50,480 bases of DNA from positions 1-50,480 of IMG/VR virus record IMGVR_UViG_3300037961_003735; one strand, given 5' to 3'. The notes beneath the pieces were generated by a model. It ran no database searches. It was given only the letters and a program-made list of their open reading frames with translations, and was not told the DNA's origin. Made by a program: the position numbers and the translations under genes. Positions 1 through 19,642 of this stretch are shown one piece after another. The DNA comes from a virus. Positions within the stretch are counted from its first letter, which is position 1. Every line of letters starts with the position of its first letter.

Positions 1-3000
1 TACATTAGCTTTGCCATAATCCAATTTTTCTCCTGTCTTCCTGTCTATGTAGTTAACGAACGGATCATATAAGGTATTTGGTTTCCTATCGTTGCTACTA
101 ACATTAGGTCTTACGGCAACATAGTTACCACCCCCATATGTATCAGGGTCTTCCGCTGCTTTCTTATTCAGTTCTTCCTGAGTTAACAACCACCCTTGTT
201 CTCTACCCATTTCCGCAACGCGAACCAAGAAGTTCTGGTTGGCAGCCATGGTGGACAACGTCATAAACGTCCTAAACATGTTATCGAAGAAGCTCTCTTC
301 TCCATAAACGCCCAGCAGTTCCTGTAGTCTTGGGTCTAAATCCTTTTTCCTTTTCAGGTTGTCGGTGAGGGGTTTATACCCTTCACTCTTGCCCGCTAAA
401 CCTGCGGGCATGTAACCTTTATTCCTATAGGCTTCAATAAAGGCTTCTACCTGTTGTTGTCCATACGTCCTATTACCTTCAGATAATGCATTGTATTGAG
501 ATTCAGCCATGGCAGCCGCTTCGGATGCAGACATTTCCGCATCTGCGAAAGCAACTTCATCCTTCGCTTTCAAGGCTTTCGACTTATCCCTTCTAGATTT
601 ATCTAAAAGCATAGCCGTCTGCGCATTGATGAACTGCTCTCTAAAGTAACCTTCACCTTTCTCCCTTATTCGCTGGAACTCCTCGCTCGGATCAGTGAGA
701 ACTTTATCCGCCCAACCTGATTCATTAAATATCCTGTAGCTACGGGTAAGGTATATTCCCAATTGGTCGTCGATACGCGCCTCAAGCTCTGGACTTACTC
801 CATATAATTGCTTAACCTTAACTGATAAGGCATCAATATACTTACGCATTCTGTCCAAGGTATCCACCAGTTCAGGCGCGGCGGGTATGGTGTCATTCCC
901 ATTTCGGAGTAGGTCAAGAGCATCTGCACGATCCCTGATAATCCGTTGTCTATCTTGCTCAGTTAGGACTGCATACTCAGCGTTAGCCTCTTCTTCTAGT
1001 AGGGCTTTCTGTTGCTTCGCCTGCTTGCGGGCTTCCCTAACTTCCTTGTATGTTATGTCACCCTTCTTAGCTATACGTTCTTGCTCCTTGAGTTTAGCAT
1101 CTATTGCGGCCACTCCTTGTGTAACGTAATCCTCTATCCGTTTAGCATCTGCGCTAGATGGTCGGGCACCTCTGGTGTTTCCGATTGCCGCTGCTATAAC
1201 CTTTATAGGTGCTTTACCTAAAGAGCCGTAGGCTTCAATAGTCTGTGCTTTAAGATTTTCATGGAACTTGGTAACCGTGCGTAACGATTGGTTCATCATA
1301 AACTTACGCTGGTCATCAAGCGAGCGGACACGTGGGTCTAACGATCCCGCCAACCACCGCATAAATTTGTATTTGAAAGGCTTCTTATAGCCTCCGGCCT
1401 TCAGGACAGGCAGGTCGAACAAGTCCAGCACATGCCGAAATTCAGTGGCGTTCAGAATCTCCTCATCTGTAGGCGGGCGTGATCCTATGCTGGAAGCTAA
1501 CTCTACAGGTTCTTCACCGTCTAATTCTTTGATAGGTTTACGTGCTACAATAAGGCGGTCGTAGGAACCTATCCGCTCACCATCTTTATAAGCTGTGGCT
1601 TCGTTAGTGATTACTTCACCGAAATTCTTCTTAACTTGATTTACAAATCCTCTATAATATTCGGCGTAGCGATTAGCGGCGTGTTCAGTAACCCAGAAAT
1701 AAGCAGAGCCATTAGGCTTGATGGCATCTGCGGCCAATTCAATCGCATGCGCTCTGACATCGTCTGATACACCACTATTCATTACGGAAGCTACTGTAGC
1801 GGTATCTGCCTGCCCGCCTCTAATTAGTTTGGCCGCCTCTTCGTTATGCTCTGGACTACGATTAGCTGGGTCATAAACTACATTAGTAACTCCATGCCGG
1901 TTGAGTAGTATGTTAGTTGCCTCTTGCGATGCGCCTCCTCCAATAGCTGCGTTGATGCCGCCACTAATCCACATAGGTTTATCTGGAGCGGCTTTTTCTA
2001 CTAGCTCATCCAGACGTTCTGATATTTCAGTGAATGACGCACTACCATATAACCTAGCTTGTGAAACAATTTCTTGGTTTCTTTCAAGCCAGTCTGCTGA
2101 TTTTTCAACTAAATTAGAGCCATCAGGTAATGTCAGGTAATCTGCATCTTTGATAAACCACCTCGGAATAACATTACCCGAACGTGGGCTGATAATATCC
2201 ATGAACCCACCGAACGGTTGCCACTGTCCGGCAGTTGTCCCACCGATGCCTGCCTTACGCCCCCTACCGGATGACAAGTAGAATACCTGTTTCATGCCTT
2301 CTGGCAATGAGACTTCGACAATTGTCCTTCGGCCTGATTGTCCTAAAACCCGTATATCCTCGGGCTGTAAGGTGTTTGCGTCAAACCCCATATCATCAAG
2401 CAAAGCACCTCTATATCTTAATTCATTTAGCTTTTTCTGCTTATGTTCTTGCCGAACTCTTGTAGGAGCATTTATATCAGGAGCATTGTTCAATAACCGC
2501 ATGTCCTTAACGGATACCGGATCACTTATTGAAGGCTGTGGCCTGCCATCCTCGTCCTTATCAAAGGAGAACGTATCCCACATAAGGAAGCTAGGATATC
2601 GTTGTATATGTAAACGCTCCCCTGCTGGTGCTGTAAATTCAGAAACCCCTGTATGCCTCATGGTTATGCCCCGCATCCTCGGGTCATCCAACTTAGCTAT
2701 ATCAAGGTTCCAGTCAGGGAATTTGGTAGCGTTGGGGTCTTGGCTATCCCATAAATCCATACCTCCTAATGATGACCAAAGCTCAAGCTGCTCGTCCGAT
2801 GAAGTCGGAGCGGTGACCCTACCCGTTAGTGGTTGTCCGGCTCCCCTAATTAAAGGTCTGGCTGTGCTGTATTTTGCGATAGCCTGACCCATCTTAGCGA
2901 AGTCGCGTGCCACCTTCTCATACTTATTCCATTGGGCTTCTGTTTCTAGCTTTCTTAAGGGCCGTCCTGTTCTATCGAACTGATCTTTTTTGACAAAATC

Positions 3001-6000
3001 GGCTGTGGTGTCTCCGGTAATTAATACGTGTGTTGATTTTTTAGATAATCCTCTTACACGCTCGTCATTAGCCCCCAGCATATGAATCCTGTATGCTTGT
3101 TGGTTTTCCGGTATATCATTCCGACTTACCTGATCGACGTAAGTTTCTAATTCTTTCTTAGACCAAACAGCTTTAGCGGAAGGTGCGCCTACAACGAAGT
3201 TCCATCTGCGGGAATCTTCCCCGAATATAGATGTTATATCACCTACCGCATCAGCAAACGATGCCTCGTCTCTAGGCGCGTTGGGTCGTTGCGCCGGAAC
3301 AACTACGGTTACTCCTTTGTCCATTAAACCTAGCAGTCTATCTTTATACTGCTCTAGTAATTCTTTAGTGCCTATCGGGTCACCTATTATATCAGGAGCA
3401 ACCACAGTAAGGTTTAATGCATCTGTTGGGTTTATTGATAACGCAGCCCATTCCTCGTAAAAAGATACTATCTCCTCCCAATTAAGCAGAGAGCTTTTCG
3501 GGTTGTTATATACCTGTTCAACAATAGTTTTCGGATAGCCCGCTTTAATAGCCGCATCCACACTACCCGCATCCAGAATATTGTTCTTAGCAGAGAATGC
3601 CGCAAAGGCTCCGCTATCCAGAAATACTCTGCCTCCTCTAAACCAATATTGCAATAATCGCCCGTGACGTGCCCTGAACCCTTCTCCCGGTGCATGAACC
3701 CCATCCTTCTTAGGTTGTTTCTCGTAGTTTCGTTTATGTATAGATTGAGCCTGCGCACCGATTGACATCGTGCCCATTATAGCTTTCTTTAAATGATGCA
3801 GGTTTACGGCAGCTCCTGAGCGGAAGGTGTCGAACACTTCATCTACACGCGACTTGGGTAAGTAACCATACATACCTCCCTCACCCTCAACTTCACCTGT
3901 CATTGGGTCTTCAAACGCACCTATATAAAGGTTACCCCTATCATCCATGGTAGCGTTCAATCCCTTAATCGGCGTAGGTTGTGATTCCCAAGGCCATTCT
4001 GCCAGCATCTCAATCTCTTCCTCAGACAGATCAGGGTTCTGCTGTCGCAAGCGATCCGCATCATCCATGTCCGGCAGGACGTTGAGGGTGTAATTAAGGG
4101 CTTCTGCGGATTCCCTAGTGAAAGGGGCACCGTTATTCATAATCGTATACAGAAGTTTGTCTGTAGAGAATGAACCCATCTCGCCTTCCACGAACCGTTT
4201 CGTGGCTGGTGGTATCGGTGGGTCGCTTATTGAAGTGTAAAGCGTTATGTCCTCGGGTTCCTTATCACCCACTTCAGTGACCCATCCATTACCTGCCCAT
4301 ATCTTTTTCTCAGCGAACTGGATAACCGCGTGAAGTTCAGCAGTATCCATATCCAATTGTTTAGCTGCTCTGTTAAAGATCAGTTCTGACGCTAAGAAAT
4401 CCTCATAAGACACTCCTCTCTCGGCTGGTGGTTGGATACGCCAACGGGATTGGGATGCTTTAACGGGTGCTTTATATAAAAGTCTACGGAGTGAGCGTGC
4501 GTCCCATACGCCAAAGCTGGACTGCCCGATATCTTCAGGTAGTTCTGGATCACTAAGTGATTCCTCAGCTTGTTTGGCAAGCAGTGCGGCGGCTCGGTCT
4601 ATGGCTCCACTGTCGATGGCGGCATCTATCCTAGCCCTATTAGGTTCAGTTATGTCATAGGGCAGTTCCTCGTAGTCGGGCTTTGTGAAATCCCTTGCAC
4701 CCTTATTCCTGAACCCTTTACCAGTGAGCAATGGAGAACCTAACAAGTCATATGGCTGTTGGATAATATTATCATCCTCGTCATACTTTACCGGAATCAT
4801 CGACGTATCATTTAGCTCTGCCGTGCTATCTATCTTAGATGCAAGAGCCACCATACCGGATTCAGGGTTCTTAACGTCAAACGGCTCTATATCTGGAGCT
4901 TTGAAGTTACCTCTCATCATCCTTAATTGGGTAACAATGCGGTCAGTCGCTCTGGCGAGATGAGGGTTCTGGCGTTGGACTTTACGAAGCTCAAGTAACC
5001 GGCGTAGGAATCCTTTCATGTAACGGATTGCACGCTGGAGCAGATTGGGGTTACTCCTAAAAAACTTGTTATCTTCTTCAGTAGTAAAGCCACGCACCAC
5101 TCGTTGTGCGTGCATACGCATCTTCTCCTCAATTAGCCTATACTTTTCCTTACCGGATACGGTAGGGTCAGGTGAGTTGAGTCTCGCAAACGAAGCCTCT
5201 TTAGAGGATTGGTCTTGGTAATATTCGTCTGCTATATCTGTAAAGTCACCGTCACCTAAGCTATCGATTACTTCCTGAACTTCAGCCCTTGTAAGGACGT
5301 TCCAACTGGCTACGTGAGCCATCTCCTCACTGACCATCGTAACGGATAAGTGCAGGGCATCTTTATCCTGCAATCCACTTATGGCTCGGGCTACTCCGTA
5401 AGGGTTGATGTAGACCATATTACCCTTCGCCCACATAGGGGGTGCGCTCTGTTTAGAGCCTCCGGGCGCATAATCTAAGCTGCGGACAACCGTTGCGTTT
5501 ACTCCATTCGATGAAGCTACGTCTAATGCTAGTCCTACGTTGTCGTTAACCCTGCGCTTTATATCAGTTGCTGTGTTTTCTGAATCATCTGCCGCGATAG
5601 CCTCCATCCCATTATGGGTTCCTGAAATCATTGGCGGCGGGGTGGTTGACTCAAAGGCAGCTACTTGTGTCCTGCGCTCATCGTAATCCCTTAAATCAAT
5701 TCGGTCTTCGGGTAGTATGATCTGCCCGTCATCGTCAAATGTGATTGGGTTGCCGGACTTCACGCGGCGTGAATCAAATACCACAAGTGTGGCTGGCGTG
5801 TCTCTCCGCATTCCACTTGGCTGCATCGGATCAACTGCCCGAAGATCAATAACAGAGTCGTAACCCAAGTAGTTGAGTATACCGTTAATAGCTTCTTGGG
5901 TTACCTCAGATTCACCGAACATTTCATCCGACTCAAGGAACTCGACAAACTCTGAGAAAGGCGCGGCTTCATCAGCCATCTCAAGAACCTTCTTAAAGCT

Positions 6001-9000
6001 ATCAGTTGATATATCTGTGTTTAACCCTCTTCCATTCAAAGGTGAGCCGGGGGATTCTGCTATAGCTAAAACAGAAGAAATAGCTTTAACCAACAAGGGG
6101 GCATCGGCCTCAGCCATAACTCCCGTTGGGTTTTGAGTCATCTTTTCAGACCAAGCTACCTCAGCCAGTCTTTGCTGCTCTAGCCTTATATACTCTTCAT
6201 ACCCAACCAATGTTGAATTAAGTGATAGGTTGTATTCCTCTCTAATATTTGTTTCAGCTTCTTGCTTATACTCCTCAAGGACGCTTGAGTTAATACCGAA
6301 ATACATATCCGGCTCATCCAAAATAGGTATTTCATCCTCCTTATAACCACTAGGCATGCGGGTTTCTTCAAAACCTCCAAGAACTGCGCTGTTCAGTAAT
6401 GATGCGTAGCGCATGCGCTCTCTGTAATCGTCACCTATAAGGGACTTAGCTGCATTATCATACGCCTCGACTTCAGTTATATCGGGGTTTTCTTTGCGGA
6501 GTCTCTCCGACTCCTCTGCAACCATTGCTTCCCAATCCTCATGGTAGGTATAAACAGATGTGCCATCCTCTTTCTTTGTTACGAAGATTGGTCTATAAGC
6601 CATTATCCTAGCCCACTTGGTCATAAATGAACTTAGCTGGGCAGATGCTAATGGGTTTCTTTTCGTCCATTCAGACAGAATAGCTTGCCTCTCCTCTGTT
6701 GAATTGGCTCCGCTCAGCAAGGGTTGGATGTGGTCACCACCATCATCCCCACTAAGATGGGTTGAGTAAACTGAATTAGGGGATGGTTCGTATGAACCTA
6801 TTGATGTTTCGAGAGTTTCGTCCGCGTCATATTGTAAACGACCGCTCTCATACCCCTCGCGGAAGGCATCTCTATATTGGGGTTGCGCGGCACCCGCTTG
6901 GCTCTTACGGAACGCATCTCCCGACAAACCCAGCTCATAGCCGTTACGGAAAAATTCTCTGGCACCGTCCAAGTAGGCTTGCGGGGGGTCAGGTCGAGCT
7001 GCTATATCATATTCATCTTCTAACCGCTCTATTGACCACTTACTATCAAAGACTGCATCCGCATCAGTAGCTGGTTCATCAGCGGCTGCATCCGGTCTTT
7101 CCATTATCTCCGCTTCGTCCTCTTCCGTCAGGAAACGCGTCCTTAGCCCAGAGGCAACTATAAACTTAGGGTCTGGGAGAGCTGAAGTTGGGTCGTATAC
7201 GACTTTATTTAAAAGGACAGTTAATTCGTCTGGGGGCTGAGTATTATCGTCGTTGAATACAAATTCTTTGGCCTCTTTCAGTTTCTTGAAGATAGCCTCA
7301 CTCCCATCATCCTTAGTTAAAGTCTCGCCATCCAAGGTAGCGCGCCATCTTATATGCCTTCCGGTGCCTTCGCCCACCTTCTCAACTTTAAGTCTGCTGA
7401 AGGCACCAACGAACTTATCAGCGGCTGCTTTTTCCAATGGGTCTGCGATAAACCCTGTATCTATTTCTATATATAAGTCATTACCTCCGGCTTTCTTCCA
7501 TGATGCGTTATCATGGTAATCCTCTGTGTCTATGTTTCCGACGAATATAGGTAATTCTTCTTGTGTATTAGGCGATAGCTGGCTGGGATCATTCCTTACT
7601 TCTGATAAATGATCGCTGAGTAACTTTAGCTTATCCCGTAATAAGTCTACGTCTTTGGGTTGCTTGCCCCTCCGCACTACATCTGGGAGGAACCAATCAT
7701 ATTTTTTAGCACCCCTCCAATATTCATATGACTCTTTTATATCAGAATATAACCTCTCTAAAAGGGCTATAGGAATGCCATCCGATGCGCTTATATTACC
7801 TATATAAGACATACCGACGAACCTGCCGCCGAACCGTGCCCCATCCCCTGCGATAGATGAATCAGGGTTTAGCATAGCTAAATATGTATTCTCAACCCTC
7901 ATGGCTTCCTTATCGCCTAACTCGAAAGCTCTCTCCCAACGATTAACCGCCTCTGACTTCCAAAGCTGCATCTCAGCATTCAGCGCATTATCGAAGCGTA
8001 AATTGGCTGATGAGTCAGGCGTATCTGACCCTTCCAATGTGTGGCCTCCAAAGATGTTTAACCCTAGAGTTGCGACATCTAATGAAAGTTCATCTTCTCT
8101 TCCACCATCTTCAGTCCGACTGATCTTGCTTTCAATCACCGTCGTAGCGGTGGGGGTGGTGGGCTTAGTGGCTTCTAAGTTCGCTAGAATCTCATCCGCT
8201 TTGTTGTTGAGCGGATCAACTACCGACGCATACCCATCTGCCATTGATGCTAGATTTGCTGCCCGCTTTAGCTCGTCACCAAGTATTTTTACTGAAGCAC
8301 GGGGTAATTTATCATTCGCTAATATAGGTGAATCTGTTGCACGTTTATCTCTTAAAAAACTAGCTAGTTCTCGGAAACCGGCGGTTTCTACTACTGACTT
8401 ATCCGCTCCCTCGTCATCATAGTCTTCCTTATTGCGCACCTCCTCTAACGCGAAATATAAGTATTCAGCATATTCGGTAGATGAATCAGCGTCTTCTAGG
8501 TTTACGCCTATCTCAACCTCTGTCATGTCATCTATGACGGCAGGGGGTGTATCGGCGGGCGGGTTATCCAATAAATTCTGAATTTTAGTAGCAGTCGCGC
8601 CTGCCCATGCGCCTCCCTTTAATATCTCCGTAAAGCGGTCAGCATCCAGATCAGCTTCGTTAGCCGGTGAGTCCCTATTCGCTAAATTTTTAAGATCAGC
8701 TATAAGGTAAGGTGCAATATCGGATGATATAAGTTGTCTTCCCGGTATTCGCAGGCTAGAGCCCTTCGGCTCCCCCCTCGACAACCAATCAAGATAAGGT
8801 CGGTATTCTTCGTTCCCTCTATTTACCTCTTCCGTAGCTCCTGTTATTAACAGATCAAGTTCCGTGACTATGTAGTTATCAACTTCTTCATCTTTAGAAA
8901 TGAAAAAATTACGCATGCTTATATAGTCATCCCCAAACCATTTGGCATCCAACGAGGAATCTTGGGATGTGTCGGGTGCTTCCTCAAGCCTCCTGATCGT

Positions 9001-12000
9001 CCCTATATTAAATGCGAATTGCGAATCACCTATTACACCCTCTTCAAAATTAATCTTGGATGTATCTTCTACGATTAGGATTTGGTTGCCAGCTTGTTCT
9101 TTAGGTAGTGCTATAATGCTCTGCCCTTCGGGGTTCTGGATATAAAGGTCGTATGCTTGTAGAATGAACCGCTCTGCATCAAGTATTTCGTCATACAGGC
9201 TTGATTCCTCATATACGTCAGGATCAAGTGTGCCTTCTTCTGAGAAACCACCTTCCCTATTTTTATAGTCGTTTAATATGTTCTTATGGTCTAAGTAGCG
9301 TTTGTCCTCTGCTTCGGAGACGGGGGTTCCCTTAGACAAATCAGGGTTCTGGAATCTAGTGTAATATTCCGTTATACGGTTTTTCCACTTTTCCAATAGA
9401 TCAGGAGATATCTCTGCGGCTACGTCAGGCCATTCATCCTCAAATTTTACGTATTCAGGAACAACATTTTCGTCTACATCCCACAACTCCTTTATCTTCT
9501 GTCTTGCGCTAGTTACCTCATTATCAAAATCCTCTTGCCCCTTATCACTCAAGTTGAGTTCCAGTTGTTCGTATACTTTTTCATCTTCCTCTTTCTTTTT
9601 CTGCCAGTCAGTAAACTGGTCAGACTGGTTTTTAGCTACGTCCTTTTTACGTAGCCGATCTTCCAGCATGATAGACATACTTGTGTTGAATGAAGTGAAA
9701 ATGGCTTCCCTGAAATCAGCCATTTCAGAGTCCACCGTCCCTGATTCCTGAACCGCTACCTCAATGGTCTGAGTTATGTAATCCAGTAATTGAGGAGATA
9801 TTGTGCCGTTGCGTTCAAACTGATTATCTAACCAATCAATTACAGGCTTAGATTGGATACGCCCTTCATTCTTAATTGAGTTGGATAGTATTTCCAACGC
9901 ACGTTCAAATAGCTCACGCTCGTCGCCTTCGGCTAACTTAGCAAATTCCGGTATTGCAGATGGGTCGGGTTCAGTTACAGCCTCACCTTCACCTAATGGT
10001 AAACTTGTCTGCTCACTTAAAGGTAGTAAAAGCTGCTGTATTTTTTGCTCTACCGGCCTATCCAACGCTGCTGAGAAAGGGAATTCATATTGCACTTCGC
10101 CACTTTCAGTGGTGTAAGCTTTAGGTATTGCAGGGGCTTCCTGCTCAAACATAGGAACCCATTCAAAATCCTCGACTTCTCTTTCGACGGTTTTGTATTT
10201 ATCTTTACCGTCTTCATCAACGCCATCCTTTTCAAGCGATTCAATAATTGTCTTACGTTTTACTCTACGGAATCCCGGTCTAGGTGAAGGGCCGCCTTGT
10301 GCCATGACCTCATCAATGAATGGCATTTCGTCCTGCCCTAATGTTTCGGGCGAATCTCTCCGTGTAGCTTTCCGCGTAGGGAAACCCACCCAAGTCCCGC
10401 CAATGCGGACTCCATAAATGACTCCATTCGAATCTATATTATAGTCGGCGTCGTTGCGGGCTGCCTGAAGTTCAGCCTCATCAGTTATGCGCGGTAGGAC
10501 AGATGGTAATATGGCTGCTCCATCTGTCGCGTAGTAATTTGCAAATGTTTTGTTAACCTGCCTGTGGTGTTTTTGTTTAGCAGGAGATGCTGGAATAAGT
10601 TCTGCATCTTCTTCTACGGGTGTTGCGACTTCTGTGGCTTCTGCTTCTACGTCTTCTTCAAGTGAGGGTGCGCCTTCAGGTCTTGGTGGCAGGGCTTCCC
10701 GTGGTCCTCTTGCCAACGCGGTGCGTGTCCAGTTACGCAGCTCGGCGGCAGCTAATGGGCTGTCGTTTTCTTCCAGTGTCGAAATTATATTCTGAATTTG
10801 ATCGCGCTCGTATGCTTCAGCATCTTTTATTCCTGCTCCTGTAGCGAACCGGTTAACGGCTCGCATGGCGGGTGTGAGTGTGCCACCAATCAAGGCTCCC
10901 GCTCTCGCTCCTACTAACGCTCTATTTATGTGTTCAATTAGTGGGCGTTCTTCGTCCAGCGCAGCGGCTTCAATAAAGCTCTGCACAAATTCATCAAGAC
11001 CCTCCTCCATGCCTTCAGGCAACGCGTCCTTAGCCCTAGCTTTAAGGAATTTACCTACACCTTTATTAAAGGGTCGGTCCAATTCGTGTATAGCCTCTGC
11101 CATGCGGCTCTTAATTAAAGCCTCAGCTTCCTTGTTTCCTACCTTTTGACCTGATAGTTTGGTAAGGACTTGTTTCATCTCCTTATAGGAAAGCCCACGA
11201 TTCAATAAAGAATCTTCGAAACCACCCAACCCCATCTTGCTAAATGCTGATGTTATAAGGATGGTCGATGCCGCTGCCTTTAGTCCAGCACCTAATGCGA
11301 TGGCATGTTTTTCCTCATGTGTCATTGTATCAGGCAGGCTGCCATATACGGACACAAACATCCCCCCACCCGAACGTGTTCCCCATGGAATTGCCATGGT
11401 TGTCTGACGCATAAAGCGATTAGACATGGCGCGGGTATATGCTTCGATAGCCTTCTCCACTCCGACTTTGGCAGCGTCGGTTCCTGAAGTCTTAATCAGG
11501 TTGTTGGCTATCAGGTCATCAGCAAGTTGCTTAGGGGATTGGTAAAATTTGGGTTTCAATAAAGTAAGTCCCATAGACTTCTTTGCTAAACCCTTAGCAG
11601 TCACACGTGATCCAGCCTGTGTGGATAGGTAACCCAGACCCACAACACCTCCCGTAAATGCTGCTAATCCTAACGATACCAAAGCATCTACGACAACAGC
11701 AGAAGCTGTTCCTGCGGCGTCTAGCACCCAACTGAATTCTTCCCCGAACAAGGCTGCAACTTCTCTGCGTCTTGCGTCTTCCTTGGCTTCCTTTTCATTA
11801 TACTCACGTGCAGAGGAGCTGCCAAATATTTGAGCAGGGAATGACCAAAGTTGTGCTATTGATGCTTCTATAGATGACCCAAATTGAGTTAATTGGTTTT
11901 TGAAATGGCTGTAGTTATCAGGGTCTGCTAAGAAATTATCTAATATGTCAACATCAGGAGTTCCCTTAACTCGTCCTGCCTGCAAAGCAGCCCGCCATTT

Positions 12001-13206
12001 AGAACCTGTGGCACTGGTTTCATCTAAAATATCTTTATAGTGGTCAAACGCACCTGCTACATAAGCCTGTCTGCGTTGTTTTAAGGAGATACGTTGTTCG
12101 TCCGTAAGACGTGTGTCTTTATCCACCGCGCTTTCAAAGCGGTCACGCCTGAGCATGAGCGTGGGGTGAGCCATAGGCACACCACCAAACATGCGGATGT
12201 TCCGGTTATCTTGTTCTGGGTCATCGTAAAACTCAAATGCTCCCGAATGGTTTAAGTCCTGCGCTGCAAATACCTGAAGTGCTCTCCCTATGTCCCTATC
12301 TGAAAACCTACCGTAAGCCTTAGCTCCGTAAGAATTTCGTGTCTTGCTATAATGACGTTGTAGTGCTTCCCTGGCGTCCTCTATAGATTTGTAAGGCGTG
12401 TCGATGAACTCTTTGTTTATCTTATCGGCTTTTCTAATGGCTTCTTTTACATCTTTTAAAGCCCCTCCCATTACATCGTAATTGGATTTATCGGCCTTAG
12501 CTGCGGCCATCTCGACCATTAATTCGGACAGTTCCTGCTGCTCAAAAACATTAAGCCCGTCACTATTCTTGGTCTGGGAAAATCTAAGGGCTTGTGCTGC
12601 GTCTGCGTAACTGACAGTCCCTGCCATGGCTGACCGTTTAAAGGCATCCCCTAAATGAGCACCTCTACTAGCGGGCCCGCCTATTATACTCCGCTCGTTT
12701 CCATCAATACTTGAAATGGTAGCAAATGGGATTTCGCCTGTGCGAACTAATAATGCTTTAGCTTCATTTAAGCGGTTATTGACGTAGGGGTCTGTAGGGT
12801 CTGCTTCTAACTTCTGTGAAAAGTTATCTGCCTCTAAATCCCCTAACGCTTGACGCACAAGAGAAATCTTTCTGTCAGAGGAAATATCACGTGCACCTAC
12901 TAAGTTTACCGCGTTAGCCTCAAAATCAGGGTCTACGTCAGGAGTCCCTATAGCTCCTATTTGCTGTGCTTTTTGCAGTAAGGCGGTATTTATCGACGCG
13001 TCGATCTCGTCAGTCAGCTCGCCTGTATTGAGGTGCCACTCCCTTACATAATCTGCGTAGTTTCTTATGCTTTCAACCGGCTCCTCAGTGGTCATCCCTC
13101 GGGCATTTGACCATGATTCATAATCATTGAACGTGTCCTCCTGTTTAATAGGAGATAATACGGGGTCATTGACCCCACCAAGTGGTGGAATAGGAGCGTC
13201 TGGCAC
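1..13206 (-). CDS. Giant phage polyvalent protein, 3' end off window (DpdA-like, methyltransferase-like, ART-like and zincin-like regions)
   Basis: One uninterrupted reading frame of at least 4,402 codons runs off the left edge. The start is GTG at 13206, because an in-frame TAA lies just upstream at 13213-13215. Regions read by eye: three hydrophobic Ala/Gly-rich stretches near residues 493-525, 633-652 and 763-780; an RMF-like GY..G / GYESG motif near 2081-2124; an ADP-ribosyltransferase-like end (LGYDS, VVFDSRRVKS, TFDDDG) near 2445-2497; EEMAH at 2627-2631, resembling a zincin site; LDSGAF (Asp3197), APD (Asp3272) and TGDTT (Asp3399), as in the DpdA/TGT fold; a VSLPEG...FYLSSGRG motif near 3627-3690; a methyltransferase-like segment (VYDP Asp3779, TVASVMN, AIKPNG) near 3740-3895; and YLTRSYR near 4140. 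This mix is typical of the polyvalent proteins described by Iyer and colleagues (2017), which phages deliver with their DNA. The gene follows four probable virion genes. Domain calls are from motifs only. T7-like RNA polymerase motifs were not seen, which argues against an N4-type virion RNA polymerase. Confidence 0.85.
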   Translation of the reverse strand, partial: MPDAPIPPLGGVNDPVLSPIKQEDTFNDYESWSNARGMTTEEPVESIRNYADYVREWHLNTGELTDEIDASINTALLQKAQQIGAIGTPDVDPDFEANAVNLVGARDISSDRKISLVRQALGDLEADNFSQKLEADPTDPYVNNRLNEAKALLVRTGEIPFATISSIDGNERSIIGGPASRGAHLGDAFKRSAMAGTVSYADAAQALRFSQTKNSDGLNVFEQQELSELMVEMAAAKADKSNYDVMGGALKDVKEAIRKADKINKEFIDTPYKSIEDAREALQRHYSKTRNSYGAKAYGRFSDRDIGRALQVFAAQDLNHSGAFEFYDDPEQDNRNIRMFGGVPMAHPTLMLRRDRFESAVDKDTRLTDEQRISLKQRRQAYVAGAFDHYKDILDETSATGSKWRAALQAGRVKGTPDVDILDNFLADPDNYSHFKNQLTQFGSSIEASIAQLWSFPAQIFGSSSAREYNEKEAKEDARRREVAALFGEEFSWVLDAAGTASAVVVDALVSLGLAAFTGGVVGLGYLSTQAGSRVTAKGLAKKSMGLTLLKPKFYQSPKQLADDLIANNLIKTSGTDAAKVGVEKAIEAYTRAMSNRFMRQTTMAIPWGTRSGGGMFVSVYGSLPDTMTHEEKHAIALGAGLKAAASTILITSAFSKMGLGGFEDSLLNRGLSYKEMKQVLTKLSGQKVGNKEAEALIKSRMAEAIHELDRPFNKGVGKFLKARAKDALPEGMEEGLDEFVQSFIEAAALDEERPLIEHINRALVGARAGALIGGTLTPAMRAVNRFATGAGIKDAEAYERDQIQNIISTLEENDSPLAAAELRNWTRTALARGPREALPPRPEGAPSLEEDVEAEATEVATPVEEDAELIPASPAKQKHHRQVNKTFANYYATDGAAILPSVLPRITDEAELQAARNDADYNIDSNGVIYGVRIGGTWVGFPTRKATRRDSPETLGQDEMPFIDEVMAQGGPSPRPGFRRVKRKTIIESLEKDGVDEDGKDKYKTVEREVEDFEWVPMFEQEAPAIPKAYTTESGEVQYEFPFSAALDRPVEQKIQQLLLPLSEQTSLPLGEGEAVTEPDPSAIPEFAKLAEGDERELFERALEILSNSIKNEGRIQSKPVIDWLDNQFERNGTISPQLLDYITQTIEVAVQESGTVDSEMADFREAIFTSFNTSMSIMLEDRLRKKDVAKNQSDQFTDWQKKKEEDEKVYEQLELNLSDKGQEDFDNEVTSARQKIKELWDVDENVVPEYVKFEDEWPDVAAEISPDLLEKWKNRITEYYTRFQNPDLSKGTPVSEAEDKRYLDHKNILNDYKNREGGFSEEGTLDPDVYEESSLYDEILDAERFILQAYDLYIQNPEGQSIIALPKEQAGNQILIVEDTSKINFEEGVIGDSQFAFNIGTIRRLEEAPDTSQDSSLDAKWFGDDYISMRNFFISKDEEVDNYIVTELDLLITGATEEVNRGNEEYRPYLDWLSRGEPKGSSLRIPGRQLISSDIAPYLIADLKNLANRDSPANEADLDADRFTEILKGGAWAGATATKIQNLLDNPPADTPPAVIDDMTEVEIGVNLEDADSSTEYAEYLYFALEEVRNKEDYDDEGADKSVVETAGFRELASFLRDKRATDSPILANDKLPRASVKILGDELKRAANLASMADGYASVVDPLNNKADEILANLEATKPTTPTATTVIESKISRTEDGGREDELSLDVATLGLNIFGGHTLEGSDTPDSSANLRFDNALNAEMQLWKSEAVNRWERAFELGDKEAMRVENTYLAMLNPDSSIAGDGARFGGRFVGMSYIGNISASDGIPIALLERLYSDIKESYEYWRGAKKYDWFLPDVVRRGKQPKDVDLLRDKLKLLSDHLSEVRNDPSQLSPNTQEELPIFVGNIDTEDYHDNASWKKAGGNDLYIEIDTGFIADPLEKAAADKFVGAFSRLKVEKVGEGTGRHIRWRATLDGETLTKDDGSEAIFKKLKEAKEFVFNDDNTQPPDELTVLLNKVVYDPTSALPDPKFIVASGLRTRFLTEEDEAEIMERPDAAADEPATDADAVFDSKWSIERLEDEYDIAARPDPPQAYLDGAREFFRNGYELGLSGDAFRKSQAGAAQPQYRDAFREGYESGRLQYDADETLETSIGSYEPSPNSVYSTHLSGDDGGDHIQPLLSGANSTEERQAILSEWTKRNPLASAQLSSFMTKWARIMAYRPIFVTKKEDGTSVYTYHEDWEAMVAEESERLRKENPDITEVEAYDNAAKSLIGDDYRERMRYASLLNSAVLGGFEETRMPSGYKEDEIPILDEPDMYFGINSSVLEEYKQEAETNIREEYNLSLNSTLVGYEEYIRLEQQRLAEVAWSEKMTQNPTGVMAEADAPLLVKAISSVLAIAESPGSPLNGRGLNTDISTDSFKKVLEMADEAAPFSEFVEFLESDEMFGESEVTQEAINGILNYLGYDSVIDLRAVDPMQPSGMRRDTPATLVVFDSRRVKSGNPITFDDDGQIILPEDRIDLRDYDERRTQVAAFESTTPPPMISGTHNGMEAIAADDSENTATDIKRRVNDNVGLALDVASSNGVNATVVRSLDYAPGGSKQSAPPMWAKGNMVYINPYGVARAISGLQDKDALHLSVTMVSEEMAHVASWNVLTRAEVQEVIDSLGDGDFTDIADEYYQDQSSKEASFARLNSPDPTVSGKEKYRLIEEKMRMHAQRVVRGFTTEEDNKFFRSNPNLLQRAIRYMKGFLRRLLELRKVQRQNPHLARATDRIVTQLRMMRGNFKAPDIEPFDVKNPESGMVALASKIDSTAELNDTSMIPVKYDEDDNIIQQPYDLLGSPLLTGKGFRNKGARDFTKPDYEELPYDITEPNRARIDAAIDSGAIDRAAALLAKQAEESLSDPELPEDIGQSSFGVWDARSLRRLLYKAPVKASQSRWRIQPPAERGVSYEDFLASELIFNRAAKQLDMDTAELHAVIQFAEKKIWAGNGWVTEVGDKEPEDITLYTSISDPPIPPATKRFVEGEMGSFSTDKLLYTIMNNGAPFTRESAEALNYTLNVLPDMDDADRLRQQNPDLSEEEIEMLAEWPWESQPTPIKGLNATMDDRGNLYIGAFEDPMTGEVEGEGGMYGYLPKSRVDEVFDTFRSGAAVNLHHLKKAIMGTMSIGAQAQSIHKRNYEKQPKKDGVHAPGEGFRARHGRLLQYWFRGGRVFLDSGAFAAFSAKNNILDAGSVDAAIKAGYPKTIVEQVYNNPKSSLLNWEEIVSFYEEWAALSINPTDALNLTVVAPDIIGDPIGTKELLEQYKDRLLGLMDKGVTVVVPAQRPNAPRDEASFADAVGDITSIFGEDSRRWNFVVGAPSAKAVWSKKELETYVDQVSRNDIPENQQAYRIHMLGANDERVRGLSKKSTHVLITGDTTADFVKKDQFDRTGRPLRKLETEAQWNKYEKVARDFAKMGQAIAKYSTARPLIRGAGQPLTGRVTAPTSSDEQLELWSSLGGMDLWDSQDPNATKFPDWNLDIAKLDDPRMRGITMRHTGVSEFTAPAGERLHIQRYPSFLMWDTFSFDKDEDGRPQPSISDPVSVKDMRLLNNAPDINAPTRVRQEHKQKKLNELRYRGALLDDMGFDANTLQPEDIRVLGQSGRRTIVEVSLPEGMKQVFYLSSGRGRKAGIGGTTAGQWQPFGGFMDIISPRSGNVIPRWFIKDADYLTLPDGSNLVEKSADWLERNQEIVSQARLYGSASFTEISERLDELVEKAAPDKPMWISGGINAAIGGGASQEATNILLNRHGVTNVVYDPANRSPEHNEEAAKLIRGGQADTATVASVMNSGVSDDVRAHAIELAADAIKPNGSAYFWVTEHAANRYAEYYRGFVNQVKKNFGEVITNEATAYKDGERIGSYDRLIVARKPIKELDGEEPVELASSIGSRPPTDEEILNATEFRHVLDLFDLPVLKAGGYKKPFKYKFMRWLAGSLDPRVRSLDDQRKFMMNQSLRTVTKFHENLKAQTIEAYGSLGKAPIKVIAAAIGNTRGARPSSADAKRIEDYVTQGVAAIDAKLKEQERIAKKGDITYKEVREARKQAKQQKALLEEEANAEYAVLTEQDRQRIIRDRADALDLLRNGNDTIPAAPELVDTLDRMRKYIDALSVKVKQLYGVSPELEARIDDQLGIYLTRSYRIFNESGWADKVLTDPSEEFQRIREKGEGYFREQFINAQTAMLLDKSRRDKSKALKAKDEVAFADAEMSASEAAAMAESQYNALSEGNRTYGQQQVEAFIEAYRNKGYMPAGLAGKSEGYKPLTDNLKRKKDLDPRLQELLGVYGEESFFDNMFRTFMTLSTMAANQNFLVRVAEMGREQGWLLTQEELNKKAAEDPDTYGGGNYVAVRPNVSSNDRKPNTLYDPFVNYIDRKTGEKLDYGKANV

Positions 13207-13246: not shown

Positions 13247-14575
13247 TTATCTGATTGGGGAAATCCCAAATTTGCGTTCAAAGAGACTTTGTCTCCCACT
13301 AGCCGTGGAGGGCTGATCCCCTGAAGATGGTAGCGAAGAGTAACGGCGGCCACTTAATTCATCTCGTTTAGAGGAAATGGCGTCACGCGTCTGACGTAAT
13401 AACGCTGCAAATTGTTTTACTAACTCGTCAGAGCTGATATTTTCTAAATCAACGTCTGCGAAATCCGTTTTATCGAATCGTTCTTGTCCTATGATATCCC
13501 TAAGAACTCGGGATACACGGACAAATTGCATCTTACGGAAGTCTTCTACAGATAGAGGGGCTCCCGCAGCTTCTCCTGTTTGTGAGGGCATAGCTAACTC
13601 ATCCCTGCCTTTAGCGAACGCAGTCATGGAGCTGTTAACTTCCTTATCTGCCTCTGATAAACGGCTTAGGTAATATTCCAAACCAGATTGCTTTTGCACC
13701 AAGGCGTCCTCTGCTCTCTTCAGTTCTGCTTTAGATACAGCCCCACTATTAACGGCTCGGGCTAGGGCACTTAAATCTCTTCCTATTGAATCATCTGGCG
13801 CATAAAATTCGTTTACGACCTCCGTTGATCCCGTTCTAGCAGCGGCAAGTGCGGTATCAAACTTCTGCCTAGCAGATGTTTTCTCATCCTCTCTCTGCCC
13901 AGCTACCTGCGTATACGCGGTATTGAATACAGCCGATAAACGGGGGTCAGTAATCGCTGTGGGGTGTTTAAGTTTAAGAGCTGATAAAGCTGAAATCTTA
14001 TCTGAACTGGTAGCGTCGGCACTAATTATGGGGTTAATCTGATCTACCACATTAGGTAATATGCCTTCCACTTCGCGTTGTCGTTTAGTAGCGTCTCTGG
14101 CAGTTTGCAAATTCAATTGGGCTTGCTCAAACGCAACCTCATCTCTTCGTAGTTTTTGCGCTCGCTGTTGCCTTTCAAACACTTCGTTATCCAATAACGG
14201 CATAAATCTGTTAGCTAACATTTCCTGTTGGCCTATTGGTATGCCGGGACGAGCTATATCCTGAAAGAACTGCTGCCTCATGGGGGCTATGTCCCTTTCA
14301 AAATCTATCGTATCGTCGAAATGGGATCGACGGGCGGCGGCTACAGTTTCTCTTCCTTGTTCTACGGCAGAGCGAAATGCAGGCGTCATTATGGACGGCT
14401 CATTGAGACGCATATTTTCTGCCTCAAGCATCATTTTGCCTGCTTCAGACCTATAACCTTGTCTGCGTAATCTTTCTGCGGCTCTTCGTAGACGAGAGGA
14501 CTGCCGTCCGGTCGGGACTGCCGCTGCCATACCCGACATATAATTCGGGTCGTATGCTATATCTCCTTCAGCCAT
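13247..14575 (-). CDS. Putative internal virion protein, helical, 442 aa
   Basis: This 442-residue protein is not recognised as a named family. It is rich in Arg, Glu, Ala and Gln with long predicted helices (for example residues 130-175 and 240-330) and no membrane segment or signal peptide. It lies between a 308-aa gene, 5 nt upstream, and the giant polyvalent gene, 40 nt downstream. All read in the same direction and are probably one transcript. Position and composition fit an internal core or ejection protein of a short-tailed phage, but this is inference. The ATG leader is AT-rich with no Shine-Dalgarno sequence, as for most genes here. A tail or scaffold-like role cannot be excluded. 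Confidence 0.85.
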   Translation of the reverse strand: MAEGDIAYDPNYMSGMAAAVPTGRQSSRLRRAAERLRRQGYRSEAGKMMLEAENMRLNEPSIMTPAFRSAVEQGRETVAAARRSHFDDTIDFERDIAPMRQQFFQDIARPGIPIGQQEMLANRFMPLLDNEVFERQQRAQKLRRDEVAFEQAQLNLQTARDATKRQREVEGILPNVVDQINPIISADATSSDKISALSALKLKHPTAITDPRLSAVFNTAYTQVAGQREDEKTSARQKFDTALAAARTGSTEVVNEFYAPDDSIGRDLSALARAVNSGAVSKAELKRAEDALVQKQSGLEYYLSRLSEADKEVNSSMTAFAKGRDELAMPSQTGEAAGAPLSVEDFRKMQFVRVSRVLRDIIGQERFDKTDFADVDLENISSDELVKQFAALLRQTRDAISSKRDELSGRRYSSLPSSGDQPSTASGRQSLFERKFGISPIR

Positions 14576-14580
14576 TTTGC

Positions 14581-15507
14581 TTATTTATCCCATGGTGCAG
14601 GTCCAAAACGAGAAGCGTGCTGGCGTGCTAAGCGTGCTTTACCCTGCTCATAAATTTCCTGCTTCGATGGTTTCCGGTTTTCGATTTTGGATATAAACCT
14701 CTCAATATTGGCCTGAGTCATGTTACCAGACCACGGGTCAATCTGTTCGCCAATAGCAAAAATATTCTCTAGTTCGTCCAGATTATCTGCTTTCTTATAG
14801 TAATCTTTATCGGCGGCGATGTTGTCTTCTATCGTCCTAGCTAGTTCCTTCTTCAAGAATAGGGTGGATTGATCATCCGTGAGTGCTAGTTTTTTGCGCC
14901 TTGCCTCATCTTCCTCATTAACCGTATTAAATTTTCCCGTCTTTAATCCTTCCGATAACCTACCACTTAACTCTTTGCCATATCGCTGACGGTGTAGTGC
15001 GCGGCGGCGTCCCGTCAAGGGAGTTACTGGTTTTGGCTTCCTTTCGATAGGAAACGGTAAGTCAGGAGCTACTGCTGGGCCTGTATATGTTGGGTCAGTC
15101 CATGCAGGAAGGGGTTGCTCTCTAATAGATATCCGTTCAGGAAGCCCACGCTCAGCGCGGCTGGCTTTTTCAGCTTCGATATCGTAACCGTAATCAGGTT
15201 CTTTGACTTCTTTAGGAACCCACTTCTTCTTTTCAGCATCCCAATTGTGGGTCTTGGCGTAATCGGGTTCGTCTATTTCCTCGCCCGTTTTGGGGTCTTT
15301 AATTTTAGCGGTTATTTGTGGGTATGAAAGTCTTTGCTGAATGCGTTTGATAGGAGCTAAAAATTTCTTCGCATTACTATTCGTTAGTTTTACGGTTTTA
15401 CCGCCCTTCCATCCGGCGTCGGCCATCTCAGGAGTTATAAAGACTTCGGGACCGACTACTTTATTTTCCTCGTCTACAAAATATGGGGAGTTATAATTAA
15501 CAGCCAT
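14581..15507 (-). CDS. Hypothetical virion-associated protein, 308 aa
   Basis: The protein has 308 residues, is highly charged and is lysine- and proline-rich. The N-terminus (MAVNYNSPYFVDEENKVVGP) is followed by several 'KDPKTGEEIDEPDY'-like polar segments, and the C-terminal third (about residues 220-300) looks helical. No catalytic motif, signal peptide or membrane span is visible. It starts 4 nt after the stop of the upstream 402-aa gene and ends 5 nt before the 442-aa gene, so it is translated from the same message. The neighbourhood suggests a virion or ejected protein. The family is not recognised. Confidence 0.85.
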   Translation of the reverse strand: MAVNYNSPYFVDEENKVVGPEVFITPEMADAGWKGGKTVKLTNSNAKKFLAPIKRIQQRLSYPQITAKIKDPKTGEEIDEPDYAKTHNWDAEKKKWVPKEVKEPDYGYDIEAEKASRAERGLPERISIREQPLPAWTDPTYTGPAVAPDLPFPIERKPKPVTPLTGRRRALHRQRYGKELSGRLSEGLKTGKFNTVNEEDEARRKKLALTDDQSTLFLKKELARTIEDNIAADKDYYKKADNLDELENIFAIGEQIDPWSGNMTQANIERFISKIENRKPSKQEIYEQGKARLARQHASRFGPAPWDK

Positions 15508-15511
15508 TTAC

Positions 15512-16720
15512 TTAATTTTTTATGCTTATCCCTAGTGACTTTAGATATTTATCCCTCTCTCCTTCTTTCCAAGACCTTTGCGGTGGCTCTTCTTCTTCAT
15601 CTTCACTACTCCAGTAAGCGGCAGCGGGGATGAGAGCTGGGCTTCCAATAAGTGCTCCTAAAGCTGCCTTTTTCTTTTTAGACATCTTCTTAGGCTGTCC
15701 TACAGGACGATCAATAGTCGGCGTTGCTTTACTGCTCGCCCCTGCTGTGCCTGCTGTGCCTTGCCGCTTAACTTGAGGTATATTACGTCCGAATTTTATT
15801 TGAGCTTCGGCTTCTGCGAAGGGATCACCCCCCATCCTTAAAGAAGCCGGTTCGGGCGGTTGTTGTGATGCAACAGTTTCAGCTAGGTCTTGAATCAGGT
15901 TATCAGGTTGTCCTGCTAATCGTTTTTCTGCCGCTTCGGCTGCTGCTTTTCTGCGGGCTTCAAATAAAAGTTCGGCATTTTTTTCAGAGCTGTGTTGGAT
16001 AGGTGGTCTGTCGGGGACCATTCGTCCTAACTCATCCGTTTTTGTAGACGCAGCTAAATGCTTAGGCATTGGGCTTTCGATATCCACATCAACCCCCTTC
16101 CGTTTCATATCTAATATTTCGGCCTTGGCTCTTTCAGGGTCGCCTGATAATATCTTTTGAATCTCTTGATCTTTATATTTTCGATACTGAAGGTTGCGGT
16201 TCATTAAACGGTTGTGTTCTACAACGTCTTTAGGGCTGTCAGGGACGACGAATCCATATCCCTCAGCTTCTTTCTTTAAAACTTGCCAACTAGGCACTTT
16301 GTTACCGTATGCTGCGCGTTGCCGTGCTACAAACTCTTTGGGTGGTAGCATTTTATCAAACCTATCAATACTAATAGGTTCTGTGCGTGGGCGTTTAACG
16401 GGTGCAGGTGTAGGAGTAGGGGTGGGTGTAGTGGCGGGTGCTTGTCTGCGCCTTAAAACAGGGGCTCCCTGCTTTCGCGCAGCCTCCATTTTTAGCTGAT
16501 CCTTTAATACCTTTGCGCGTTCAGCGGCGGATAGGGAAGCCTTCTGGGCATCCATCCTATCCTCTAGCTTTCGTTGTGTATCGAAAGCGGGGGAGCCTTT
16601 AGTGTATTTACTTAATGCCTTATCGCGTGCGGTGGGTTCCGGTCTAAATTTATTAAAAATCGCCCTAACTATATTACCTTTAATACCTTTAGGTTTAGCT
16701 TTAAACTCAGGAGCTGCCAT
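15512..16720 (-). CDS. Hypothetical basic virion-associated protein with C-terminal hydrophobic segment, 402 aa
   Basis: This is a basic, low-complexity protein of 402 residues. It has a Thr-Pro repeat (TPTPTPTPAP) near residue 100, long Ala/Arg/Lys-rich helices, and near the C-terminus a lysine cluster followed by a short hydrophobic segment (AALGALIGSPALIPAAAYW, about residues 350-370) that could insert in a membrane. The tail after it is acidic. One hydrophobic span near the end of a packaged, helical protein fits an ejection protein, but the family is not recognised. The start codon overlaps the stop of the 120-aa gene upstream by one base (TAATG), a junction used repeatedly in this genome. 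Confidence 0.85.
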   Translation of the reverse strand: MAAPEFKAKPKGIKGNIVRAIFNKFRPEPTARDKALSKYTKGSPAFDTQRKLEDRMDAQKASLSAAERAKVLKDQLKMEAARKQGAPVLRRRQAPATTPTPTPTPAPVKRPRTEPISIDRFDKMLPPKEFVARQRAAYGNKVPSWQVLKKEAEGYGFVVPDSPKDVVEHNRLMNRNLQYRKYKDQEIQKILSGDPERAKAEILDMKRKGVDVDIESPMPKHLAASTKTDELGRMVPDRPPIQHSSEKNAELLFEARRKAAAEAAEKRLAGQPDNLIQDLAETVASQQPPEPASLRMGGDPFAEAEAQIKFGRNIPQVKRQGTAGTAGASSKATPTIDRPVGQPKKMSKKKKAALGALIGSPALIPAAAYWSSEDEEEEPPQRSWKEGERDKYLKSLGISIKN

Positions 16721-17082
16721 TACTTCTTAGGGGGGTTTTTACCTTTTGGCGTTTTTAATTTTTCCATAGCCATACGGAGTGTGTTATCGTCGGGAAACCC
16801 TCCAGCGGGGACGTTAACGCCGCCTGCTTCCATATACTCTCTCAGACGATCCTTCTGTGTCCTGCCTGCCGGTTGGTTTGCTTTCCTAGCGGCGGCTAGA
16901 GCCTTTTTATCGGGTTTAGCCATAGCCATTGATTCCCGCAAAGATGGCTTAGCTTTGGCCGTAGTTTTAGCAGCCCCGAGGGATTTCCTACTAACCTTAT
17001 CCAATACTTCGGGTGGGACTACTGGTGTCGGTTTTACCTTTAACTTTTTTAGAAATGAAGATGCTATCTTTGAACCTGCCAT
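16720..17082 (-). CDS. Small basic hypothetical protein, first gene after late-element copy 1, 120 aa
   Basis: The 120-residue protein is Lys- and Ala-rich (long runs such as KTTAKAKPSLRESMAMAKP) with a C-terminal PKGKNPPKK tail. It contains no recognisable domain and is probably nucleic-acid-binding by charge alone. It is the first gene of the leftward block ending in the giant gene. The perfect palindrome at 17157-17191 starts 75 nt upstream of its ATG, exactly the distance seen for the gene at 49864, which supports ATG at 17082 as the true start and a promoter just upstream. Confidence 0.8.
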   Translation of the reverse strand: MAGSKIASSFLKKLKVKPTPVVPPEVLDKVSRKSLGAAKTTAKAKPSLRESMAMAKPDKKALAAARKANQPAGRTQKDRLREYMEAGGVNVPAGGFPDDNTLRMAMEKLKTPKGKNPPKK

Positions 17083-18990: not shown

Positions 18991-19033
18991 CCAACTTGAA
19001 CTATAGCAATTTAAATAGTATATATTAAATGCT
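18991..19033. promoter_or_regulatory. Divergent intergenic region between terL and terS
   Basis: Only 43 bp separate the two start codons. It is AT-rich, with a TATATATTAAAT stretch at about 19019-19030 that could be a -10 box for the plus strand very close to the TTG start. Divergent promoters must lie here or inside the flanking genes. No operator repeat is visible. Confidence 0.4.
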
Positions 19034-19642
19034 TTGAGTAAAAAAGCCAAAAAAGCCAAAAAGTCGGAACTCATTAAACGGGCTCTCGACATGTATAATA
19101 AGGATTACAAGTTGGTGAATATCTGCAAGGAGTTGGATATTCACCCCGCTACGTTACGTAGATGGCTAAGGGAAATGGGGGTAGCTCCAAAGACAAACTC
19201 TCACGCAGAATCTAATCCTAAACCAAAAGACCCTGATCCGTTGGGGACGGCTGTTGACAAAAATCTGAAAGAGACAACTGATGATGCTGTCAAGCTGGCT
19301 AAACACGATGCACGCTTAGCGGAGGATAAATCCATGATGGAGATAGCGGAGTCCCAATCCTCACCGGCAGAGAAATACCAAAGTTATATCGCAGCGGCGG
19401 GAATAAAGCTGCTACGCGATGCTATGAAAAATCTTCGCGGACCTAAAACCGTCCGTGAACTATCTGAACTGGATCAACTAATACGACGAAACCTCGGTCT
19501 AAATGCTAAGACCGGTGGCGGGACTGGGAAGGTTCAGATAGACATATCAATACTCAATAACGCGAAAGCTGATAGGGGTAAAGGCTCTATAAAAGTAAAC
19601 CCTGATAAAGTTATCGACGTTGAGGAACTAGACTCTGAATAA
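19034..19642 (+). CDS. terS: Terminase small subunit (helix-turn-helix DNA-binding)
   Basis: This is the likely DNA-recognition subunit of the packaging motor, 202 residues. The N-terminus is lysine-rich and is followed by a helix-turn-helix (about residues 13-48, ending in ATLRRWLREMG). A helical middle region and a conserved-looking ELDQLIRRNLGLN segment (about 145-160) come before the acidic tail. The start is TTG at 19034: an upstream ATG at 19029 is out of frame and hits a stop, and the next in-frame ATG (19091) would cut into the DNA-binding domain. It heads the plus-strand replication block and is divergent from terL. The call rests on the HTH and on adjacency to terL. Confidence 0.75.
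   Translation: MSKKAKKAKKSELIKRALDMYNKDYKLVNICKELDIHPATLRRWLREMGVAPKTNSHAESNPKPKDPDPLGTAVDKNLKETTDDAVKLAKHDARLAEDKSMMEIAESQSSPAEKYQSYIAAAGIKLLRDAMKNLRGPKTVRELSELDQLIRRNLGLNAKTGGGTGKVQIDISILNNAKADRGKGSIKVNPDKVIDVEELDSE

Follow-up and report, generated by a model that had tools for sequence, protein, structure and literature searches.

A Divergent, DpdA-Like Transglycosylase Domain in a Giant Phage Protein That May Be Ejected with the Genome

The IMG/VR record IMGVR_UViG_3300037961_003735 (positions 1 to 50,480; this whole 50.5-kb stretch is the window of our analysis) encodes a terminase, a DNA polymerase, and a primase of phage type together with a giant open reading frame (ORF) on the minus strand (13206..1) that has at least 4,402 codons, is open at the window end, and is complete at 5,145 residues in a sister contig, IMGVR_UViG_3300030117_005840 (G001; 63,321 nt). 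We are highly confident that residues 3110–3450 of the giant protein (2857..3879, minus strand) form a barrel domain of the tRNA-guanine transglycosylase (TGT) superfamily, with its eight strands within residues 3127–3401. By its sequence, we regard the domain as a new TGT subfamily, one that is DpdA-like rather than identifiable as DpdA proper. We propose, at what we judge to be about even chances, that the TGT-like domain of the giant protein, which is probably ejected, exchanges guanine in the entering phage DNA for preQ0 made by the host.

The motifs on which the initial annotation of this DNA had based a DpdA-like domain, with Asp3197, Asp3272, and Asp3399, are all found at the residues it gave in the translated giant ORF (FLDSGAF starting at residue 3195, APDIIGDP at 3270, VVPAQR at 3302, FVVGAP at 3337, HMLGAND at 3375, and TGDTT at 3397). 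The nucleotide range that it proposed, 2990–3665, falls within the domain, which extends further, to about 2857–3879; likewise, the segment that it described as WVGxGS-like is present under a loose label, the family motif at this place being [GA]xP. Along the barrel (all on the minus strand), the DSGAF motif with Asp3197 (3604..3618) is at the end of strand 3, the APDIIGD motif with Asp3272 and Asp3276 (3379..3399) follows strand 4, the PxQ motif with Gln3306 (3289..3297) follows strand 5, the GxP motif with Gly3340 and Pro3342 (3181..3189) is at the end of strand 6, the HxLG motif with His3375 (3073..3084) is on strand 7, and the TGDTT motif with Asp3399, the candidate nucleophile (3004..3018), is on strand 8. 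Judged from barrel topology, the conserved residues lie on strands 3 to 8 or directly follow them, which is where the active sites of barrels are found. Eight residues are invariant in all 21 rows of the family alignment (Asp3197, Gly3199, Asp3272, Asp3276, Pro3342, His3375, Gly3378, and Asp3399), the position of Gly3340 is glycine in 20 rows, and that of Gln3306 is glutamine in 19 and histidine in 2; the window keeps all ten of these counted pocket positions. The zinc site of tRNA TGT is CxCx2C...H. The window domain contains no cysteine and therefore has no zinc site, and CxCx2C is found in none of the 21 rows.

Profile comparison supports homology of the domain to the TGT superfamily at the level of sequence. 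Comparison of the family profile with that of ten phage DpdA proteins using hhalign gave a probability of 97.4% and E = 9.5e-12 (3.9e-11 without the window row); with the DpdA profile reversed, E was 0.4, and the lowest value among 30 column shuffles was 0.042. This alignment spans the region from the first strand to HxxG, setting His3375 of HMLG opposite the HxxG histidine (position 196 of 9g DpdA); the final aspartate lies outside it and was aligned by MAFFT instead, which sets the three aspartates of the domain against those of nine phage DpdAs (identity 16–23%). A hidden Markov model (HMM) of 10 phage DpdA proteins finds its best place in the giant protein at the domain, with 11.8 bits (best of 2,000 shuffles, 5.4). 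With a profile of 20 relatives, from which the window was excluded, the window domain reaches 113 bits and the best of 2,000 shuffles 6.6. Selection helps this figure, since the relatives had been collected by means of the motif of the window itself, and the comparison with DpdA weighs more. The window domain has no match in Pfam, PHROGs, NCBIfam, or PDB sequences and no tblastn match among 50,697 phage records, and neither it nor the family rows match Pfam TGT. Searches with NCBIfam and PADLOC returned nothing relevant, the presence of a DpdA model in either being unverified. The family profile (A4) matched no TGT or DpdA among PDB sequences and gave a single weak match, to dihydrodipicolinate synthase (E = 0.34); this search is uninformative because a profile of known phage DpdA matched no TGT or DpdA there either. 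Assignment of the domain to an LPD family of Pfam was rejected given no LPD match in the 21 rows, a result that covers the LPD alignments within Pfam.

Fold prediction using AlphaFold2 on a 12-row alignment yields an eight-strand barrel (predicted local distance difference test [pLDDT] 75.9, predicted template modeling score [pTM] 0.76) in which 21 of the 22 ten-residue blocks between model residues 71 and 290 have a pLDDT of at least 82. VIA-align, which re-ranks only the best 1,000 chains of Foldseek, ranks the DNA preQ0 insertase DpdA (7ui4) first (Z 12.9, root mean square deviation 3.6, 206 aligned residues), with archaeosine and bacterial TGTs tied behind it, and its best 50 rows are all TGT, archaeosine TGT, or DpdA (Z 12.2–12.9), many of them entries of one enzyme. 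The best PDB match of the window model in Foldseek itself is a TGT (E = 3.2e-4, TM-score 0.41), and the best viral match is an "ART-PolyVal-like domain-containing protein" (E = 1.6e-10); given the low Foldseek TM-scores, the fold assignment rests on VIA-align and the profiles. A stand-alone relative encoded on a plasmid (L144) is modeled with pLDDT 92.8 and pTM 0.89, and its seven best Foldseek matches are TGTs. The initial annotation would have been abandoned had structure and profile searches returned no TGT or DpdA match; both return such matches.

The domain shares with DpdA (the bacterial enzyme 7ui4 and the phage 9g type) the barrel fold, the DSGxF aspartate, the aspartate after strand 4, HxxG, and the final aspartate. 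It differs in its low identity to the phage proteins, in having glutamine for histidine, in lying inside a giant protein, and in being missed by PHROG 887 and 7068, which match 8 of 8 tested phage DpdAs. The idea of a divergent DpdA- or TGT-like domain in the giant protein is thus sustained by fold and profiles, and assignment to DpdA proper is not, in view of the PHROG models and of Gln3306. The likeness to bacterial and archaeal tRNA-guanine transglycosylases consists of the barrel fold and the tied VIA-align scores, and the differences are the missing zinc-site cysteines and the missing Pfam TGT match.

Several observations count against the reading that we prefer. Strands 1 and 2 of the model are in blocks of pLDDT 69–77, the second and third PDB matches in Foldseek are unrelated barrels with low TM-scores (E = 3.4e-4 and 6.1e-4), and for the plasmid relative L144, VIA-align has aldolases tied with TGT and the Cap10-CdnD structure (9ntn) at rank 7 (Z 12.2). 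Because the DpdA and tRNA TGT rows are tied in VIA-align, structure does not choose the target. MAFFT, unlike hhalign, does not put HMLG opposite the HxxG of DpdA, and hhalign sets Gln3306 opposite a histidine of 10 of the 10 phage DpdAs, a residue that may or may not define the DpdA family. The window copy is the most divergent one, with the longest end branch of the tree (3.96); it contains inserts, and it has Phe3404 where an arginine is nearly invariant in the family. The 2 synonymous and 2 nonsynonymous differences between the domains of the window and the sister contig are too few for selection on the domain to be shown. No Pfam polyvalent domain was found in the window giant protein or in the last 756 residues of that of the sister contig, and a review suggests that the Dar system of phage P1 may physically obstruct restriction.

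By analogy, there is a good likelihood that virions carry the giant protein and eject it together with the genome, and the injected protein envisaged by the initial annotation is likely given the absence of cysteine and the position of the gene near packaging genes. The sister giant protein contains no cysteine in 5,145 residues, for which about 38 would be expected from the 38 other window ORFs taken as genes (78 cysteines in 10,622 residues). The virion RNA polymerase of N4-like phages is described as lacking cysteine, perhaps for passage through the tail or periplasm. Other phage giant proteins with the domain have, as far as their loci reach, no cysteine in 5,100, 4,919, 4,518, 3,294, and 4,533 residues (the last of the DNG class described below), 2 in 5,725, and 2 in 2,940; by contrast, we count 10 in 2,247 (the degenerate L131), 6 in 913, 3 in 772, and 11 in 2,206 (the plasmid protein L152). 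The terminase large subunit (PHROG 2) is encoded at 17227..19092 on the minus strand, which places the giant gene near the packaging genes, and four ORFs of 442, 308, 402, and 120 amino acids (13247..17082, minus strand) are directly upstream of the giant ORF in the same direction, all without cysteine. Given that 14 of the 38 other window ORFs also lack cysteine, its absence from these four is weak evidence, and it is possible that they are further internal virion proteins. In its size (5,145 amino acids in the sister contig) and its place beside phage late genes (terminase and four same-strand ORFs upstream), the giant protein resembles polyvalent proteins.

In the mechanism that we propose, the giant protein would be packaged and ejected with the genome into the host. 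There the domain would remove guanine from phage DNA as it enters, by way of an intermediate linked to aspartate. Analogy to TGT would make Asp3399 the nucleophile and Asp3197 the general acid/base. A 7-deazaguanine made by the host, most likely preQ0, would then be inserted in place of guanine, with the result that sites would be masked from restriction enzymes or a host mark would be imitated. We think that this divergent copy is probably active, and we lean slightly toward action on DNA; preQ0 as the substrate, DNA as the target, and an anti-restriction role are what we infer. As the initial annotation had noted for preQ0 genes, QueC, QueD, and FolE were not found in the window, nor were they found in the sister contig or any of the 15 virus records searched, the window included (several of these are fragments, and two pairs are near copies; QueE was not tested). 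All three were found in phage 9g, our positive control. QueC was found in 4 of the 4 bacterial genomes tested, of 14 with a relative, and a supply of preQ0 from the host of this phage is plausible. According to PMC6884629, some phages carry dpdA and no other 7-deazaguanine genes, and the host may contribute.

The domain might instead act on host tRNA, for example on anticodon guanines, favoring phage translation or blocking anticodon nucleases. The tRNA and archaeosine TGTs reach Z 12.7 in VIA-align, tied with DpdA at 12.9, and Gln3306 is nearer to the glutamine that tRNA TGT presumably has at this position than to the histidine of phage DpdA. We nevertheless consider a tRNA target unlikely given the absence of the TGT zinc subdomain (no cysteine in the domain, no CxCx2C in 21 rows) and the fact that several fusion partners of the relatives are DNA-directed. 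Still less probable is the handling of a 7-deazaguanine on protein, as by Cap10 of CBASS, in order to hit a host defense or label a phage protein. PMC11996544 describes the use of a TGT-family protein in nucleobase–protein conjugation by type IV CBASS, and Cap10-CdnD is the rank 7 match of the plasmid relative L144; however, 9ntn is tied there with TGTs and aldolases and is absent from the best 50 rows for the window model, and QueC was unmatched in 15 of 15 virus records tested.

A barrel that is kept and non-catalytic, serving as a DNA-binding or packing module, would account for the longest end branch, the missing arginine, and the inserts, and the loss of DSGAF and the final aspartate in L131 demonstrates that decay occurs in the family. 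The ten pocket positions kept in the window speak for catalysis, and we regard this explanation as improbable, to about the same degree as a tRNA target. It is very hard to maintain that the motif series is a coincidence in an unrelated TIM barrel: the TM-score of 0.41 and the mixed barrels among the best matches of Foldseek alone would fit that account, but the family and DpdA profiles match at E = 9.5e-12, the controls are clean, and the order of the pocket motifs and the strands on which they fall agree as well.

The family of relatives was collected with a degenerate DNA pattern for V-A-P-D-[IV]-[IV]-G-D. Its 102 stretches in IMG/VR were all classified: 13 belong to a DSGAF class (DSG[AS][FY] before and HxLG after the pattern), 43 to a DNG class, and 46 to neither. 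Alignment-guided scans kept 17 viral loci from 94 stretches and 14 bacterial loci from 58; loci were kept only with a tblastn match to the window, so the relatives are selected for likeness to it. The 21-row alignments omit near copies (L105, L128, L130, L147, and L148), the truncated L150, the degenerate L131 and L133, the DNG-class L136 and L137, and the plasmid protein L152; the HMM built from the rows that were kept recovered L152 at E = 5.1e-66. Pseudomonas accounts for 12 of the 14 bacterial loci, and the family is rare, being present in 3 of 398 Pseudomonadota genomes, the centre genome included. A tblastn search returned 47 plasmid records (31 Pseudomonas), and most of the 40 listed are annotated "hypothetical protein". 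The motif LDSGAF[TAS]A gave no relative beyond the sister contig among at least 599 stretches, locus searches with either the isolated window domain or a later section of the giant protein recovered the sister contig only, and no phage relative was obtained with the terminase as query.

In the tree, embedded copies interleave with separate ones, and at least two changes between these states are required. Stand-alone relatives (L144 and L153) are encoded on large Pseudomonas plasmids, one of 261 residues on pHN39-SIM being annotated "hypothetical protein"; a DNA cytosine methyltransferase gene is about 2.5 kb upstream of these plasmid copies. Among the giant proteins, L134 contains LPD38, ART-PolyVal, and a zeta toxin domain; L135 combines a pyrophosphatase (InPase), LPD38, and ResIII with a methyltransferase match, and its match to a helicase C-terminal domain falls below cut-off; L124 contains LPD1 and a methylase match below cut-off; L126 contains AAA_34 and Helicase_C_4; and L125 contains these two domains, which we take to be the helicase type of DarB, together with ddrB-ParB and RadC. 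L152 is an LPD1 protein of a Cupriavidus plasmid. In L123 and L135, the TGT-like domain is in one ORF with the polyvalent pyrophosphatase domain InPase. In L131 (also L051 and L056), the copy in a 2,247-residue ORF is the one that lost DSGAF and the final aspartate, and it is probably inactive. When tiles of the sister giant protein were compared with 13 other proteins by phmmer (E 1e-3), 6 of these were matched in the TGT-like domain and 1 in the C-terminal part, the latter being a protein of 1,027 residues from Pseudoalteromonas phage Y3 that is annotated as an ADP-ribosyltransferase; beyond these two regions, no stretch common to the sister giant protein and the 13 proteins was found. We tentatively suggest, with less assurance than for the base exchange itself, that the domain recurs as a module, so far undescribed, of ejected phage proteins and of the polyvalent proteins of plasmids. 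It would be a transglycosylase free of cysteine that arrives with the DNA and exchanges its guanines for 7-deazaguanines supplied by the host, masking the first genome copy before phage genes are expressed. No report of a TGT in polyvalent or DarB-like proteins was found in the literature, mainly open access.

In profile comparison, the DNG class matches the DSGAF family at E = 5.8e-12 and DpdA at E = 1.8e-8 (20 shuffles of the DpdA profile gave 0.079 at best); a single pattern, VAPDxxGD, selected both the class and the family, and this favors their match. In several actinophages, stand-alone members of the class bear the annotation "DpdA-like tRNA-guanine transglycosylase", and a member of 213 residues in an Erythrobacter phage is annotated "DarB-like antirestriction protein". 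Unlike the domain described here, which is embedded, the actinophage genes are for the most part short ORFs that stand alone, and their motifs are DNGxF, GGSTxxK, and HxGRVN. The class, with these motifs, also occurs in long cysteine-free ORFs of 2,202–4,533 residues (L028, L060, L062, L073, and L136), of which L028, L062, and L136 seem to be a single protein.

The window and the sister contig are 88–99% identical over aligned blocks of at least 600 nt, and the sister contig is probably a complete genome because its first 98 bases recur at its end. Their giant proteins diverge most at residues 1201–1600, which include unaligned residues, and 2001–2400. Residues 3768–3840 (window 1687–1905, minus strand), methyltransferase-like by eye, match LR745208, an uncultured 485-kb phage without annotation (43.6% identity over 72 query residues). 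Two zincin-like motifs, HEEKH (630–634) and EEMAH (2627–2631), might indicate a self-processing metallopeptidase and have no Pfam support.

Helicase, methyltransferase, ddrB-ParB, LPD, ART, and pyrophosphatase domains are, in sum, the fusion partners of the relatives. The position of the giant gene near packaging genes is a likeness to polyvalent proteins (Iyer 2017, PMC5512222), and the giant proteins of the relatives carry the polyvalent domains LPD1, LPD38, ART-PolyVal, ddrB-ParB, and InPase; unlike polyvalent proteins, the window and sister giant proteins have no such Pfam domain. The main text of PMC5512222 does not mention queuine, deazaguanine, archaeosine, or TGT. The same source places DarB of phage P1 in the virion head, states that it protects phage DNA in cis, and proposes that it modifies injected DNA, which makes DarB a precedent for our reading. 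The giant protein resembles DarB as a large, putatively virion-packaged protein, and among its relatives, L125 and L126 have strong matches to AAA_34 and Helicase_C_4 and L135 a match below cut-off; it differs in that DarB has an adenine methyltransferase, the portion of the source describing it mentioning no TGT domain.

If our reading is correct, its significance lies in timing. DpdA enzymes are known as the products of separate genes, made in the infected cell, and therefore come too late for the genome that enters first. If a transglycosylase came in along with the genome, this gap would be closed with no more than preQ0 from the host, and base exchange would be added to the injected strategies against restriction, which include methylation and shielding. 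That giant proteins lack cysteine would offer a simple sequence sign of ejected proteins. Because large Pseudomonas plasmids encode members of the family, annotated "hypothetical protein", and an LPD1 protein of Cupriavidus plasmids contains another, the idea could be tested both in phages and in plasmid transfer.

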